DNA of 64,000 bases, from positions 10,711,872 through 10,775,871 of the forward strand of contig NC_058499.1 of NCBI RefSeq assembly GCF_020382885.2, read 5' to 3'. Below the pieces are notes generated by a model. It was not told the DNA's origin. It worked only from the letters and a program-made list of their open reading frames with translations, and searched no databases. This document shows, in pieces, positions 42,101-50,843 of the stretch; position 1 is the first letter of the stretch, and each line of letters starts with the position of its first letter. Origin of the DNA: Scatophagus argus (taxonomy: Eukaryota > Chordata > Actinopteri > Scatophagidae). The translations under genes and the position numbers were made by a program.

Positions 42101-43839
42101 TCTAATACAAGAGAACTGCAATGAATACTACCTTTATTATAGTTTTTATTGATACTGTTTTAAAGGGGTGTTCATTCAGTTTTATACTAATTTAAGAGAC
42201 TGTAGTTCGTGGTGCTGTTGAACTGCACTGAGATACCGCGAGGTGTTTCAGGGAAGACACATGGGGAAAGGCAAAACATTGGAAATATCTCTCAGTGTAT
42301 TCATAGACAATATTAACTAATCTCCGACAGTCTACGAAGATTCTACGGATGACAAAAATCCATCGGCTACTTGTAATTTAGCCTTTGTGGTGTCTTCAGA
42401 GCCTTGGCAAAGCCAGTCTCACTCGACATGTGAAGGCTATCCAACTAGCCTATTCTCCACATAAAAAATAAGGAGAATAATGATGGTAACATTTAGGCTA
42501 CTTAGGAAAAATTATTTGCGGGTGCAGCAAAACCTAAAAATTATGTATACTTAGGTAGACCTAAATACTATTTTTAGAAGAATCACCATGTCAGTTGTCT
42601 CTGCTGTGGAAACAACTGCCATGCCGCTGTACTGTATCCACCGTACCATTTTGGTTTCCCCATTTTGGAATATGCAGTCGTTTGGGGCGAAATTATGACA
42701 TTCAAAGACACTTTCTTGTATAAAATGCAACGCTATTTTTTACAATCGCAAATGATGACAGGTCTATCAAGACCACTTTCCTTTTTATTATCTACCCAAC
42801 TGTAGATAACTGAAAGGAAATGGAGGCCCAACTTGACGATAAGCCGAAGGGCTCCACTGAGTTTACCCCATCTACTTAATTTAAAATACAGCTCTTGCCA
42901 AATTATGACGTTGATTCGTGTGATCCATCCAAACTATTTTGTATGTCATGATAAGATAGCTTGTGAACGTCAACATAAATAAGCTAGCATATAACTTGCT
43001 AAGCAACTCGATGACCAAGCCTTTCGTCTAACATTACAATAACGTCAACGTTTATGTTAGTTCACACATTTTGTAACGTACAGTTTTTATTCCTTGGATA
43101 ACAAACCCCTGCTGCCGTCTAGGAGGAGTTGGCAGTTTTTTAATTCTAGAACTAAAGACACTAACGTTGTGCTTTTCCGGTGAGGTGCTAGGTTAACGGT
43201 TGCAGTTGGCTAGTTAGCAAGCAAGCTAGCTAACTTGCAGGCTAACATTAGCTTAGCAAACGTTGCTGGCAACTTCAATAGGGATTAGACTACTTCCTGG
43301 AAAAATGTATCGAAACTGATTATTAAATATACACATTTAATGTTGCCCATATTTCCATATTAAGTGTTGCACAGTTAAAGGGAATTCTACGTGAAAAAAC
43401 CTAAATGTTATCACTGTTGTGAAACTGCCAACTTCCAGTACGTAAACTATTCCTCCAAAGCTAACCGCTAAGCTAATGTCCAAGGCCTGTTTACGCTTCA
43501 CCCAAATCTGGACCCCGGTTTTTCCTGACACTGACATGCCAAAATACCTACCTGGATGACCTCGTTGACCTCCCTGATACACTCCACCATATGCTGGAGG
43601 ATCTGTTCGGCAGTCAAAACCTCGAAGCGGTAGTCCTCCTCCTCTTCCTCACCAGGACCGTGGCCACCTCCACCAGTCTCACTGCACTCATCTCGCTCTC
43701 CACCGGCCACCACGGGATCGACCAACTCCACCTCTCCGAGCTCCAGGGTGTCGTCCTCGGGCTCCTCTTCGGCGCTGTCCTCGCTACATTCCTCCTCTTC
43801 GTCGTCGTATTCATAGTTATAACCCTCGTCTGAGTCCAT
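33139..43839 (-). CDS. ARIH1: RBR E3 ubiquitin ligase ariadne-1 (HHARI)
   Basis: Fourteen coding exons on the minus strand: 43552-43839, 40304-40371, 40008-40155, 38362-38454, 38218-38273, 37327-37393, 37039-37145, 36863-36905, 36666-36737, 35565-35695, 35294-35351, 34089-34349, 33310-33422 and 33139-33223. They sum to 1590 nt (529 aa; human 557). The order is: acidic N-terminus ([17 protein letters not shown]), UBA-like domain ([20 protein letters not shown]), RING1 ([21 protein letters not shown]), IBR ([29 protein letters not shown]), RING2/Rcat and the C-terminal Ariadne domain. The catalytic Cys is present in [12 protein letters not shown], and the RFEHKLYAQ element of the autoinhibitory Ariadne domain is intact. 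The shorter length comes from a reduced Gly-rich N-terminus. The enzyme is activated by neddylated cullin-RING ligases and primes their substrates with ubiquitin. It is head to head with HEXA, as in human. Confidence 0.99.
34871..35125 (+). repeat. tRNA-headed fish SINE copy
   Basis: It starts with a tRNA-like A-box (GGTGGTGCAGTGGTTAGCAC), has a worn B-box (AAGGTTCCAGGTCTGGG) and then the same body as the copies at 2700 and 47674 (GAGTTTGCATGTTCTC, AAAAACATGCACATTA, TGTGTCAGCCCTGCGAGTGA). It lies in an ARIH1 intron, antisense to that gene. Confidence 0.8.
35222..35263. repeat. Perfect 42-bp AT-rich palindrome
   Basis: Every base from 35222 to 35242 pairs with 35263 to 35243, with no spacer and no mismatch. 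The ends are ATATGCATAAATAATATA and its complement, around a TA core. It lies about 30 bp past the donor of ARIH1 exon 35294-35351, on the intron side. Confidence 0.95.
36385..36485 (+). repeat. Probable second type of tRNA-derived SINE fragment
   Basis: The sequence GGTCGCCGGTTTGATTCCAC contains a B-box-like GGTTTGATTCC and resembles the head of common fish SINEs. It lies in the ARIH1 intron 35696-36665. The body and limits are unclear. Confidence 0.45.
40372..43551 (-). other. ARIH1 intron 1
   Basis: A 3.2-kb first intron. Toward its 5' end (42970-43470) it holds many GCTAGC, GCTAAC and TTAGC words, for example at 43210-43265. No coding exon or recognised repeat is seen in the rest. Confidence 0.6.
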
Positions 43840-44603: not shown

Positions 44604-47600
44604 ATGGACGTTATGTATATGGTTAGTTCTGGGCGACATACTCGTCCAAAGTTGTATTTACCATTATTAATTATACTCCAGTTTGTACTGCAGACAGTGG
44701 AGGGAGTTTGGCCATTACCACAGGCCATCACTTCCTCAGCGGAGCGATACTCACTGAATTCACAGGCTTTCTATTTTGGTTACGGAAGACAATCAGCCGC
44801 ACAACCGGGTTGTTCTGTTCTGGATGCTGCATTCAAGCGATATTTTTCTCTTATTTTTCCAGACCACACTTCTGGTAGGTGATAAAATGAGGTGGAATTA
44901 AGACTGTGGTTAAACAAGAGAGTTTAAACCTTTATGGGGTGAAAGGTGCGGTCATACTGACAAAACACTCACGAAGGTAGTCCGATTCAGGTGTTATATT
45001 GATACCTAAATATTGGGACAGCACTAGTCTATATATCATACTTTAAACAGGATCAGAGTTTTTAATTTTATATAGAATATATAAATTATATGTAATGTAA
45101 ATTCTGGCTTTTTAAATTCTAGACCGAGCATTGAGGGTAGATGATTTGGGAATTTGCATGTGTGAGACAGCATTATGAAGGGACAAACAAATAGAGCAAA
45201 GGGCTAGCTGTTGTTCTTTGAATGTTCTGTTTGTCCCGTTGGCTTTTAAATTTGATCAATGGGCTTTGTAGAGACAGCAGTTCATCAGTCAGATAGTGAA
45301 AGTTTACCTACTGTAAACCCCTCCCCCGCCCAATGACAATGGCCCACAGTTTTGCTGTATCATTGTCAAAATGAAAGTGCAACGGTGCACTTCTATAAAA
45401 CTTAAAGGCAGCATCTAGTGTCTAATAATTTCACTTTTATGGCCTACAGCAAATGGTGCTCTGCGATTCAGTGACAGTAAGCCATTCACACTTGACATCA
45501 GTGTTGACCATGATGACTGTGAGAGTTACCCAAATGAGGAATCTTCCGAGAGATGTAAGTATCAACACAGTTATCTGAGCCAGCTCATTGCACATAACAT
45601 TGGCAACAATGGCAACCCAACCGGTAGAGTTAGATGCATTATTTAACTTACTCGCATTTGTGTTCCAGACAGTCTGAATGTCTCTGGCGGACAAGCATCT
45701 CTCAATGCGGAAACCGTGTGGGGTGCTGTAAGAGGTGATTGTAGCCGATACATTATTGAAAAACGTACAAACAAAATAAGAACGTGTGAGCAAAAATACA
45801 ATACAGCAAATACAGTTAGCAAAGGAAAGGCTATGTTCCATTAAAGCCTGTTTAGCAAATTATACATGATTGCTTATGCTACCCACCATTTAATAACTGA
45901 TTTAAGTATCCCACTGTTATCTGTGCAGATTATAATGATTGCTGAGTATACACTGTGTATCTTCTGATTAAGCATAGGTCTGGAAACCTTCAGTCAGCTG
46001 GTGTATCAAGATGATTTTGGCTCAGTAAGTCAGAATTTTTCAAATTTATTGGGCCTCATTAGTCATTACTTCTTTTTTTGTACAAGCAGTAGTAACATGT
46101 TTTTATAGAGCTTGATTGATGTTTGGGATGGATCAATAAAAGCAAGTAACGTTTTTTCTGGTTGTTTCATCTTTTAGTATTTTGTGAACAAGACTGAGAT
46201 TGAAGACTTCCCCCGTTTTCAGTTCAGGGGAATTTTGTTGGACACTTCACGTCACTATTTACCTGTGCAGACAATTTTAAAAACCCTGGTAATAAACAGA
46301 TAACATAATATGAACCTCTGCCTTCTGTTTCATTTATCACACATCTGTGGTATTAACATACATTTTTCTTTTTAGGATGCAATGGCCTACAGTAAGTTCA
46401 ATGTGTTTCATTGGCATATTGTCGATGATCCCTCCTTCCCTTACCAGAGTGGGACTTTTCCAGATCTTTCTAGTAAGGTACGTCATGCCAACCTTAAATA
46501 ACAAGAAGTACCTCAAATCATGTGCACTATGACTCTGCACATTCATTGTAATTTACCTTGTACAACGTTTAAACATTTTAATCCACATTTCAGGCGATAA
46601 AACTGTTTTATCTCTAACTATATTATTTTACATTATCATAGTTTATTTAACTTGGCCTCCTTCATGAGGTTGGAAAATTCTGAAAGTTGCATCCACTCTG
46701 AACAAAGGCTTCTGGCTCTGATTCAGGGGGCTTTCCATCCGATGACTCACATCTACACACAGTCAGATGTGAGAAGGGTGATCTCATATGCCAGGCTGAG
46801 GGGAATAAGGGTCCTTCCTGAGTTTGATTCACCCGGCCACACCAAATCTTGGGGCAAAGGTAAAAGTCAGAACCCACAAGACGCATTTACTTATAAATGA
46901 TTTCATGTAAGTGATCTCAGCTTCTCGATGTTCAACATCTTAAGTACTTGGCATTGTGCCTGGTTTGGTTTAACAGGGGCCGTGTCTGCAAAGCAGGCAG
47001 GCCAAGACTCTAAATGGAAATGTCCCAAATCTTGAGCTTGACTGACGTTATATCTGGAAGACTCTTAATGGCTACACGAGTAGCAACAAGCGCCTGCACT
47101 CAACAGACAAATCAAGAGATATATGTAAACAAAACTGTATTTTATTGATTACCATCTGTTCCTCAGGACAACCCGACCTCTTGACTCACTGCTACAGAGG
47201 GAGCATCCCTTCAGGTACTTTTGGTCCTGTGAATCCAACGTTACCCTCCACCTATCAGTTCATGGCAAGACTATTTAAGGAGGTGTCATCAGTGTTTCCT
47301 GATAACTATATCCACCTAGGAGGGGATGAGGTGGACTTCACCTGCTGGTGAGCTGAAATGTGACACATCATTTAAATTCTTGCTGATTAATGATTTCAGC
47401 ATGTCCCATTCTTTGTATGCGGACAACTCACTTATCATGATGAAGATGTTTAAAATGAATCTGAACTCATCTGTTGTCATAGCAACAAGTCATTAAGGCC
47501 AAACCTGCAAAAGCGTGGGTGTATTGCAGGTAGCTGGAGCATGCGTCACTGGTTCACACACAAACTAATTTTCTCTCTTGCTTTCATAGATTTGCAACAA

Positions 47601-50600
47601 GTGTTGATCTAAATATGATTTTAGTTATAATCTCTTGATGTTGTTACCACAATTTTCATAATGTCTTCTCACAGCAAGAGGGTTGAAGTTTCGAATCCCG
47701 GTCTGGGCCCTTCTGGGTGGAGTTTGCATGTTCTCCCTGTGCCCGTGTGGGTTTTCTCCGGGTACTCCAGCCTCGTCCCCCGATCCCAAAAACATGCACA
47801 TTAGGTTAATTGGCTACTCAACATTGCCATGATTTGGCAGTTTCGTGATTTGAGCACATTTTGTCATCATCATCTTGTAGTGGATTCAGTTCAAAAGTAA
47901 AATATCTACTTTTAATGGATATCTATGTAGAAGTCCAATTCTGTTGATTTGACCCTTTGAACTTTAAGCTTTAAAAATGTGCATAAACAATCAACATAAT
48001 GCATACTGATAAATAACTTCCACTACTTGTTTCTAAAGGAAATCTAATCCTGATGTCCGAGCTTTCATGCAGAAGATGGGATTTGGAGCAGACTTCACCA
48101 AACTGGAAGCATTCTACATAGAAAAGTAAGTCGTAAAGGGGAATAGAAAGGGTAAACGCAGCATTCAATACTTTAATGATACAAATGTCTTAATGTCTCT
48201 ATTTCCAGCATTGTGAATATTACTTCAGCTCTTAACAAGACCTCTATTGTGTGGCAGGATGTGTTTGACTACCATGAGCGAGTAAGTACACCCCAGCAAA
48301 TATTGCTATTAAACAAAACAAATTGTGTTCATGTAAGCTTAGAAGCTTTTTAGATATTTATATTGTTATTCCATATTGATGCACATAAGACATCCCAGAT
48401 CATGTAATGGATTTTCTTTTAAAAAAAAAGCTCATTTGAAAACTTCAAGATTCTATAGCTCTACTCAAAATACTTTTGTTTGGCTATGAATATTTGAAAA
48501 TGAATATTTAGACCTCAGAGCTAAACATCAAAGCGAACCAAGGGATAATTTGCAACATGTATTCACATAAACTTAAAATTGCAGAATGTTTCTTAAACAT
48601 CCTCTAATATGTTCAATATCTTTGCTTTTTCAGGTAGAAATAATAAAAAAAAATCATCTTGTAAAAATACATTTTTTTTAACAGCACATTGTTTCATAAA
48701 GACGAGCTAACGTATCAAGCACTTCATGTGAGTCTGATAGTCTACAGCATTGTGTTGCAGCGTAGCTCTCTATCAGTGGTGGAGGTATGGAGAGAGGGCT
48801 GTTACCTGTGTGAAGTGCGCAGAGTGGCTAAAGCAGGGCTCAAGGTGATTCTAGCCGCTCCATGGTATCTGGACAAGCCAGGACCCACACACAACTGGGC
48901 CCGTTACTACACTGTGTGGCCCCTCGCCTTCAAGGGTCAGAAAAGAACCTGTGTGCTGTGGCTGCTTGAAGTTGTACTTTCTGCTGTGGTTTTTGTCTCT
49001 GATAACAATTTTTTTATAGATAAAACTTGGTTTCCTTTTGACTGTTACGGCACCATGGAATTTTCTGTTTGTAGATACAGCAGTAGGTGGCAGTGATGCT
49101 GTTGTCCATTACTCAATTTTGCAGACATTTTGTGTCCCGATCCTATATGGTATACTAATGGCATAGAAAAAGTACTGTGCATAGAAATCAATTTTTTTTT
49201 CATATTTACATTGTGAATACATAACAAATAGTACTCAGCATCAGTATAGTATTGGGACACAGCTACAGAGAGGTGCTGTGGCACATGCTCACAATGCTGT
49301 ACAGCCCTGTGGCTAACATGTGTGATGAAATCAAAGGCAAACCAAAAAAGAACAACAGATGTGTGTCTGCTGACTATAGATGTTTTACATTTAGGTTGCT
49401 TATCAGATGAACTGCCAAAAAAACCTTTTGCCATTCTGTTGATTTACTAAATATTCAAGCTATAAAAACTTGCGGCCTATTGGAAAATTCTTTTGAATTC
49501 TTTGATTTTGATCTTGTCACGCATACATGCTCCAGTCCTCACCATTGACCTCTAGATTTATATTCTCCTTGGTTAGCTCCATCATGTAGTGTGTGCAGCA
49601 TGTTCCAAGATGGTGACACTTTGGAGAAAGGATATTCTGAAGAGTGTGTTAACAGCCTAGTTTTAAAGAACACTATATGCTTTTGCATCATGAAAACCAA
49701 TTTAATGAATCCAAAATTCATATCCTTTGTCTCTTACTGTAGGTTTACAAATTTGGTGAAGCATGTCTTGCCTTTACTGGTAAAAGATCATTACAGATTT
49801 TTTAAACTGGTCTATTTTATCAATAGAAAACAGCTTCTAAACAGATTATTCAATACAAAGATACAGCAGGCAGACAGAACAGTAGCAACATAGCACAGAA
49901 GAACAAGACAGCATGTTGTTTGTCACTCTGCTCAGATTCCTAAGGACACAGTGCTGCACATCTGGAAGGGCGTCCCAGCTGAATATGAAGCAGAGCTCAG
50001 CAGGATGACCCAAGCTGGCATGAGGGTTGTGCTGGCTGCTCCCTGGTACATCAACCATATTTCCTATGGGCAGGACTGGCGCAGCTACTACACTGTGAAA
50101 CCACAGAACTTTTCTGGTGTGTTCATAGCCACACAGTATCACATACTATTATAACTGACTCAGTGTAGTGCTGGTGATTAGTTATATGGGCTGATTCAAA
50201 GATTGACTTGCTGAGTTTTGACTTGAAGTGGTGTGGAAAATTTGACGTGAAGGTTCTGTTTGGTAGTAAACTCATTGCCAGTTTATTTTACACATCGTGC
50301 TATTGAAGCAAATATTTTCACCGTTCATTCACAGGTACCGAGGAACAGAAGAAGTTGGTGATAGGGGGTGAGGTCTGCATGTGGGGGGAATATGTTGATG
50401 CCGCCAATCTCACTCCACGTCTTTGGTAGGAGACTGAAAACATATCTACAATAACATCACCAATCTAGACAACCTGAGATAGCGCAGCAACAATTGAATT
50501 AAATCATTCAGTATAATCACTGGTTATCACTGGTGAAATCACAGGCCAAGAGCAAGTGCTGCAGCAGAGAGGCTGTGGAGTGATGAGAAACAGACATCCA

Positions 50601-50843
50601 GCGTGGACCAGGCATTTCCTCGTTTGCAGAATTTTCGCTGCAAGCTCCTGAGGTACTTTTTCTTGCCACCAGAACCTTTTAAGACATTAATGCTTTCATA
50701 CCTCAACAAAATACTGGGTTTTTTCTTATAATGTTTACTTTATCACATTGTGATATTTCTGCTTGCCTTTCTTCTCAAGGCGTGGCATCCAAGCAGAGCC
50801 TTTGTATGTTGGACACTGCAAGTACGAGTACCAGGATATTTGA
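44604..50843 (+). CDS. HEXA: Beta-hexosaminidase subunit alpha, with two alternative exon 11 copies
   Basis: Coding exons: 44604-44874, 45450-45554, 45669-45734, 45978-46024, 46178-46288, 46376-46477, 46727-46859, 47167-47347, 48039-48125, 48209-48281, then either 48761-48935 (11A) or 49936-50116 (11B), 50335-50425, 50545-50652 and 50780-50843. The product is 537 aa (11A) or 539 aa (11B). This lysosomal GH20 enzyme removes terminal N-acetylhexosamine and, with the beta subunit and GM2 activator, degrades GM2 ganglioside. A signal peptide ([14 protein letters not shown]) precedes VWPLPQ. Active-site motifs are [10 protein letters not shown] (Arg), HIVDDPSFP (Asp), SPGHT (His), [12 protein letters not shown] (catalytic Glu) and CMWGEYVD. 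The alpha-specific loop [13 protein letters not shown] is kept, which makes this HEXA, not HEXB. An in-frame Met at 44514 exists, but 44604 (ATCATGG) lies nearer the signal peptide. Confidence 0.96.
47674..47835 (+). repeat. tRNA-headed fish SINE copy, 3'-truncated
   Basis: A near-perfect B-box region (AGTTTCGAATCCCGGTCTGG) is followed by the same body as the copies at 2700 and 34871. It stops after ATTAGGTTAATTGGCTACTC. It lies in the HEXA intron 47348-48038, on the gene's strand. Confidence 0.8.
48761..48935 (+). other. HEXA: HEXA alternative exon 11A (beta-like pocket)
   Basis: This 175-nt exon enters in phase 0 (TTGTGTTGCAG|CGT) and leaves in phase 1 (AAGG|GTCAGA). It encodes 58 residues, including VEVWREG (human Trp392 position), [11 protein letters not shown] (human Tyr421 then Asp-Lys at 423-424) and [12 protein letters not shown]. 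The loop usually reading ISYGxDW is PGPTHNW here. The frame is fully open and remains open on both sides. It is homologous to exon 11B. Confidence 0.8.
48936..49935 (+). other. Intron between HEXA exons 11A and 11B
   Basis: Exactly 1 kb, AT-rich. The middle (about 49120-49330) has wording such as GTGTCCCGATCCTATATGG and GTATAGTATTGGGACACAGC, which resembles ends of a small non-autonomous DNA transposon of fish, but I cannot name it. The minus-strand open frame here is not a gene. Confidence 0.4.
49936..50116 (+). other. HEXA: HEXA alternative exon 11B (alpha-like pocket)
   Basis: This 181-nt exon enters in phase 0 (CTCTGCTCAG|ATT) and leaves in phase 1 (TCTG|GTGTGT). It encodes 60 residues, including [25 protein letters not shown] and [11 protein letters not shown]. 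It looks like the canonical vertebrate exon: the ISYGQDW loop is intact and Asn sits at the human 423 position. Confidence 0.92.

Follow-up and report, generated by a model that had tools for sequence, protein, structure and literature searches.

The HEXA gene in this stretch of the Scatophagus argus genome raises the question of why it has two homologous copies of exon 11, and whether a transcript takes one copy or the other. In the window (the whole stretch of DNA analysed, 64,000 nucleotides) HEXA lies at 44604-50843 on the plus strand, with ten exons 5' of the exon-11 pair and three 3' of it. The gene model and its neighboring marker are as follows (window coordinates; position 423 in human alpha numbering):

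44604-44874, 45450-45554, 45669-45734, 45978-46024 and 46178-46288, plus strand: HEXA exons 1-5; open joined frame, AG/GT splice sites, common to both isoforms
46376-46477, 46727-46859, 47167-47347, 48039-48125 and 48209-48281, plus strand: HEXA exons 6-10; open joined frame, AG/GT splice sites, common to both isoforms
48761-48935, plus strand: HEXA exon 11A, 175 bp; beta-type as judged by Asp at 423 and a short loop; reads WYLDK and is without ISYG (PGPT instead)
49936-50116, plus strand: HEXA exon 11B, 181 bp; alpha-type as judged by Asn at 423 and a longer loop; reads WYINH and keeps ISYGQDW
50335-50425, 50545-50652 and 50780-50843, plus strand: HEXA exons 12-14; common to both isoforms
43558-43839, minus strand: first coding exon of ARIH1, a syntenic marker upstream of HEXA (ARIH1 match E 7.3e-26)

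We concluded that the window gene is HEXA because its constitutive exons (those outside exon 11) cluster with human HEXA (AU p 0.998; each alternative 0.002 and rejected) and because ARIH1, near which human HEXA also lies, adjoins it. The GH20 domain profiles PF00728 and PF14845 were each found in all four predicted isoforms (4/4 and 4/4) of this gene and of HEXB in the same genome, described below. The genome has one further GH20 match, the third and a weak one, at C21:4029600-4030001; it possibly represents a HEXD-type gene.

An earlier note on this DNA had reported two homologous, phase-matched exon-11 copies, of 175 and 181 bp, between exons 10 and 12, and its description of them was borne out. 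Both 11A and 11B are entered in phase 0 and left in phase 1, and the 58 whole codons of 11A and the 60 of 11B are free of stops. The intron reads attgtgttgcag up to the acceptor border of 11A and gtcagaaa from its donor border; the corresponding edges of 11B are cactctgctcag and gtgtgttc (AG/GT in both exons). With 11A alone the full-length frame gives 537 aa and with 11B alone 539 aa, whereas inclusion of both copies leads to a stop after 452 residues and omission of both to a stop after 400. The aligned motifs named in the note are present in both exons. The homology of the two copies is beyond chance: in searches of the 570.7-Mb genome, 11A was recovered with 11B as the query at E 1.6e-6, and 11B with 11A as the query at E 1.1e-6. 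Of the aligned residues, 21/58 are identical (36%). At 48894-48916 in 11A and 50075-50097 in 11B, 23 nt are 83% identical, in exons that are otherwise far diverged; this segment may mark a local exchange.

The arrangement was found a second time in the genome, outside the window. A genome search with HEXA-11B matched four places, two in HEXA and two in a gene on C20; HEXA-11A matched the same four places and one more at E 5.35, which was taken as chance. In bit scores of this search, the HEXA-11A query gave 39.3 with copy A of the C20 gene, 38.0 with its own 11B and 24.5 with copy B of the C20 gene, and the HEXA-11B query gave 69.2 with copy B of the C20 gene, 60.4 with copy A and 37.2 with its own 11A; the same-type copy of the other gene ranked first for both queries. 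The C20 gene is the HEXB orthologue. Outside exon 11 it clusters with human HEXB, both other groupings being rejected (AU 0.002 each), and a frame of 57 aa beside it has a match to mitochondrial ribosome-releasing factor 2 (E 2.5e-18), the product of GFM2, which is the neighbor of human HEXB. As read, the 5' end of the gene is incomplete. Its two exon-11 copies are:

C20:4268241-4268415, minus strand: HEXB exon 11A, 175 bp, phase 0 to 1, AG/GT borders
C20:4267432-4267612, minus strand: HEXB exon 11B, 181 bp, phase 0 to 1, AG/GT borders; reads WYLNR

The HEXB pair equals the HEXA pair in order (A then B), lengths (175 and 181 bp) and phases, and double inclusion or double skipping of exon 11 breaks the frame in HEXB as well. 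It spans C20:4267432-4268415 (L006:4432-5415, minus strand). When three of the four isoforms were searched against both gene regions, a second match within the gene was obtained for exon 11 only.

Judged from these sequences, it is probable that HEXA 11A/11B and the HEXB pair are tandem-duplicated mutually exclusive exons that switch a subunit between a beta-type and an alpha-type site. The case for mutually exclusive use, which the earlier note had made for HEXA, is stronger because HEXB carries a matching pair with the same order, lengths and phases. Such use appears likely for the pair as a system and less certain for HEXA-11A; HEXB seems to fit the exon-switch model best. Each transcript would contain one exon-11 copy, and transcripts with both or neither would have a broken frame and would presumably be removed by nonsense-mediated decay. 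The frameshift and early stop upon double inclusion speak also for 11A as a poison or regulatory exon, whose joint inclusion with 11B would lower HEXA output. A poison exon, however, need not keep a 58-codon open frame, its aligned residues or its length, and HEXB-11A resembles an ordinary beta-type exon (36/58 residues identical to human HEXB), so that we regard this role as improbable. It is more improbable still, to the point of being hardly credible, that 11A serves as an alternative last exon for a truncated protein: its frame does continue for 53 codons beyond codon 58 before a stop, but this use is disfavored because no polyadenylation signal follows 11A (AATAAA and ATTAAA are absent from 48936-49935), the HEXB copies run into a stop four codons beyond codon 58 or 60, and the donor and phase of 11A fit exon 12.

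If the two exons exclude each other, a splicing regulator would be needed: at 1000 bp in HEXA and 628 bp in HEXB, the intron that separates A from B is longer than simple steric exclusion permits. No splicing regulator or RNA structure was identified at the exon-11 pairs. Scored with a donor matrix, the donors of the four exon-11 copies rank as weak at the level of the group only (p 0.035, one-sided; ranks 3, 4, 6 and 17 of 28, lowest first, with rank 17 belonging to HEXA-11B), which is slight evidence for the mechanism. Both isoforms may well be present already among the predictions of genome annotation pipelines. A 14-nt inverted repeat (48477-48490 in intron 10 versus 50122-50135 just after the 11B donor, 93% complementary) was considered as a splicing structure and rejected as probably meaningless, since by a rough estimate about one such pair per 2 kb occurs by chance.

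What a switch of exon 11 would exchange can be described in human terms. Exon 11 encodes W392, the IPV398 loop, W420-Y421, N423-R424 and Y427 in human alpha numbering (chain 2gjx_A plus 22, in agreement with IPV398 and N423-R424 in PMC3587417), which links the exon to substrate-specificity residues, a link absent from the earlier note. The difference between alpha-N423-R424 and beta-D452-L453 is the primary determinant of anionic-substrate specificity; beta does not encode the IPV398 loop, whose role in GM2-activator binding has been described as not confirmed (PMC3587417). At the human alpha-423/beta-452 position, Asp is present in both A copies and human beta, and Asn in both B copies and human alpha. 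The residues after PWY are LDK in HEXA-11A, INH in HEXA-11B, LDY in HEXB-11A and LNR in HEXB-11B, compared with LNR in human HEXA and LDL in human HEXB. At position 424, HEXA departs from the human charge pattern because HEXA-11B has His and HEXA-11A has Lys; HEXB-11B has Arg, and its motif WYLNR is that of human alpha. At the IPV398 loop, the B copies of both genes have two residues more than the A copies; human alpha has three more, and human beta has the A length (a 58-residue exon).

Under the exon-switch model, the pocket formed with copy A (Asp at 423, short loop) would be beta-type and repel acidic sugars. The pocket formed with copy B would be alpha-type, with Asn at 423, a longer loop and, in HEXB, Arg at 424 as well, and would accept GM2 or sulphated GlcNAc. 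Splicing could then set the substrate range of each subunit, a job that humans split between two genes, with the B-type exon in HEXA and the A-type exon in HEXB. The link from residues to specificity draws on human mutants and structural work rather than on fish enzymes. At the GM2-activator site, encoded in exon 8 (47167-47347 in HEXA; L006:6539-6719, minus strand, in HEXB), both fish genes have an alpha-like loop: GSIPSG in fish HEXA and GSKLSG in fish HEXB, where human alpha has GSEPSG and human beta RQNKLD. Fish HEXB looks alpha-like at this site too.

Overall similarity follows the types less closely than the diagnostic residues do. HEXA-11A scored up to 45.8 bits against human HEXB chains and 38.7 against HEXA; HEXA-11B scored 59.9 bits against HEXA and up to 59.6 against HEXB. 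In aligned identity, HEXA-11B shares 28/60 residues with human HEXA and 29/58 with human HEXB, and HEXB-11B 30/60 and 31/58, respectively; by these measures copy B is not clearly closer to human HEXA than to HEXB. Among 72 bacterial GH20 sequences, those that could be aligned among the best 80 of 483, with many close Vibrio and Aliivibrio relatives, position 423 is Asp in 63, Ser in seven and Asn in two, while Trp392 is kept in 71/72 and Tyr421 in 72/72. From the prevalence of Asp in this set, the A-type is probably the older state and the B copy derived.

HEXA-11A is the weakest of the four exon copies. In a codon model of the four fish copies, omega was 0.10-0.12 overall, with saturated branches and the HEXA-11A branch length at its upper bound (one-omega fits). 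Neutrality was rejected at 5% under both topologies for HEXA-11B (2 delta lnL 11.0 and 7.7), HEXB-11A (4.2 and 4.1) and HEXB-11B (3.9 and 4.9). For HEXA-11A it was not rejected, with 2 delta lnL 3.56 (p 0.06) or 1.79 (p 0.18) depending on topology. HEXA-11A has also changed at 7 of 18 residues that are invariant in the other five sequences, five of the seven in the ISYG.D block, and has lost the residues aligned with the dimer-contact residues beta Ile454 and Tyr456, whose equivalents are contacts tied to subunit pairing (PMC3587417). Because dimer-contact residues are lost, an alpha subunit with 11A may show altered pairing; it may be a specialized or weakened form, or the exon may be in the process of being lost.

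In the rival reading, close to the alternative named in the earlier note, 11A is a decaying relic, HEXA transcripts using 11B only and HEXB still using both copies. The loss of the ISYG block, the changed invariant residues and the branch for which neutrality stands all favor it, as do a donor ranking 6th lowest of 28 (by the same matrix) and an acceptor pyrimidine fraction of 0.55, below which just one of the 14 HEXA acceptors falls. Against it, 11A has no stop and no length change relative to HEXB-11A (175 = 175) at 47% nucleotide difference. In 5000 runs of a neutral simulation from HEXB-11A to the same difference, a crude one that places all change on one branch and has no indels, 8.4% remained stop-free, and residue identity averaged 24% (99.9th percentile 38%) compared with 43% seen. 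The GC content of 11A is 0.566 versus 0.294-0.376 in the three introns around the pair, and the equivalents of Trp392 and Tyr421, PWY and the splice borders are intact. A recent loss of use would leave all such features in place, and we consider the relic unlikely but far from negligible.

Human HEXA and HEXB have one exon-11 copy each, and this fish has two in each gene. Each human gene matches one exon type in length/indel and residue 423, HEXA the B-type and HEXB the A-type. A common origin of the pair before the HEXA/HEXB split appears somewhat more likely than repeated duplication because the indel, residue 423, order and lengths agree by type. In its full form, this history would have a single HEX gene of an early vertebrate ancestor with both exons and specificity set by splicing; the line leading to this fish would have kept both exons in both genes, and the human lineage only B in HEXA and only A in HEXB. 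We put forward this full form tentatively, as a scenario that comes near to an even chance.

The competing history is that exon 11 was duplicated independently in each gene, with the A/B resemblance due to convergence or to copying between paralogues and with no ancestral pair; we regard it as quite possible, though clearly short of even. The exon quartet had a slightly better likelihood grouped by gene (0.75-1.28 lnL in three models), as did the codon model (lnL -774.9 gene-wise versus -775.7 type-wise), but grouping by type was not rejected (AU p 0.41-0.47). Residue sites supported gene, type and crossed groupings 3, 2 and 0 times, and nucleotide sites 10, 6 and 2 times. HEXB-11A and HEXB-11B are identical at 34/58 residues, the two B copies at 26/60 and the two A copies at 25/58. 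Gene-wise sites could also result from exchange within a gene, for example in the 23 nt at 83% identity in the HEXA copies. With human exons added, the HEXA quartet was best with 11A beside human HEXA, by 0.13 lnL, whereas the HEXB quartet was best type-wise, by 0.26 lnL (neither significant). Convergent evolution of tandem exon duplications is the subject of a section in PMC9741552, which lends the independent history some plausibility, while the fact that copies of one type share their place in the order, their exact length, their state at the two-residue indel and their residue at 423 (D or N) counts against it. Exon 11 is too short for tree tests on it alone to decide the history. A search of viral contigs gave no relative.

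The wider finding, as we read these sequences, is that HEXA and HEXB share a matching pair of exons, which coincides with the specificity difference between alpha and beta. Whether a subunit of human hexosaminidase accepts GM2 and other acidic substrates is decided by residues in exon 11, and splicing could let one fish gene make an alpha-like or a beta-like active site, which humans divide over two genes. If fish choose exon 11 by splicing, alpha/beta function need not follow gene identity, and results from fish models of Tay-Sachs and Sandhoff disease would need to be interpreted isoform by isoform. Zebrafish that lack Hexb activity are viable and were described as the first vertebrate, among those tested, not to succumb (PMC6772114); the word 'isoform' is absent from the main text of that paper, and its hexb exon passages concern exon 1. 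A true switch would also provide a natural alpha-like HEXB to set beside the engineered form that has been proposed as a therapy, and genomes of fish, sharks, lampreys and tunicates would allow a direct test of how the alpha/beta division arose. Should the ancestral pair be real, the division that underlies Tay-Sachs and Sandhoff disease would have begun as a choice in splicing and been turned into two genes, and HEXB of this fish alone could still form a homodimer whose site is alpha-like, closely resembling the engineered hybrid.

In that engineering work, human beta received D452N and L453R for alpha-like specificity (Hex H1/H2; Table 1 in PMC3587417), and H2 additionally received the alpha loop (PMC3587417). 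HEXB-11B carries the equivalent of D452N and L453R naturally, as an exon. Because PDB chain 5bro reads GSEP and WYLNR, we take it to be a hybrid beta subunit of this kind. The titles and opening parts of abstracts obtained in searches of open-licence literature do not describe a paired exon 11 in HEXA or HEXB. The gene hexb is differentially spliced in the reef fish Acanthochromis polyacanthus during a heatwave (PMC8933327), which is a weak lead for an exon switch; labels of differential splicing or MXE do not show homologous exons, because pig HEXB has MXE as well as intron-retention (RI) events, in unnamed exons (PMC8411529).

Closer in form are the tandem duplicated exon substitution events of PKM, ACTN1/4 and OGDH, in which, as in the fish pair, adjacent homologous exons change one functional segment and one exon is used per transcript (PMC9741552; PMC7969005). 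PMC9741552 treats human events with fly comparisons, and a word search of its main text gave neither HEXA nor HEXB. The fish pair differs from PKM-type events in that it occurs in both paralogues and matches a difference between the human paralogues. In human HEXA and HEXB, exon 11 is a homologous segment at the same place, B-type at 423-424 and in the IPV loop in HEXA and A-type in HEXB. The gene mitf in fish is one of several cases in which the alternative exons of a single gene have been partitioned between duplicates. The hexosaminidase genes resemble these cases in that splice isoforms of one gene are separate genes elsewhere; unlike in mitf, both fish duplicates keep both exons, and the division is found in human.
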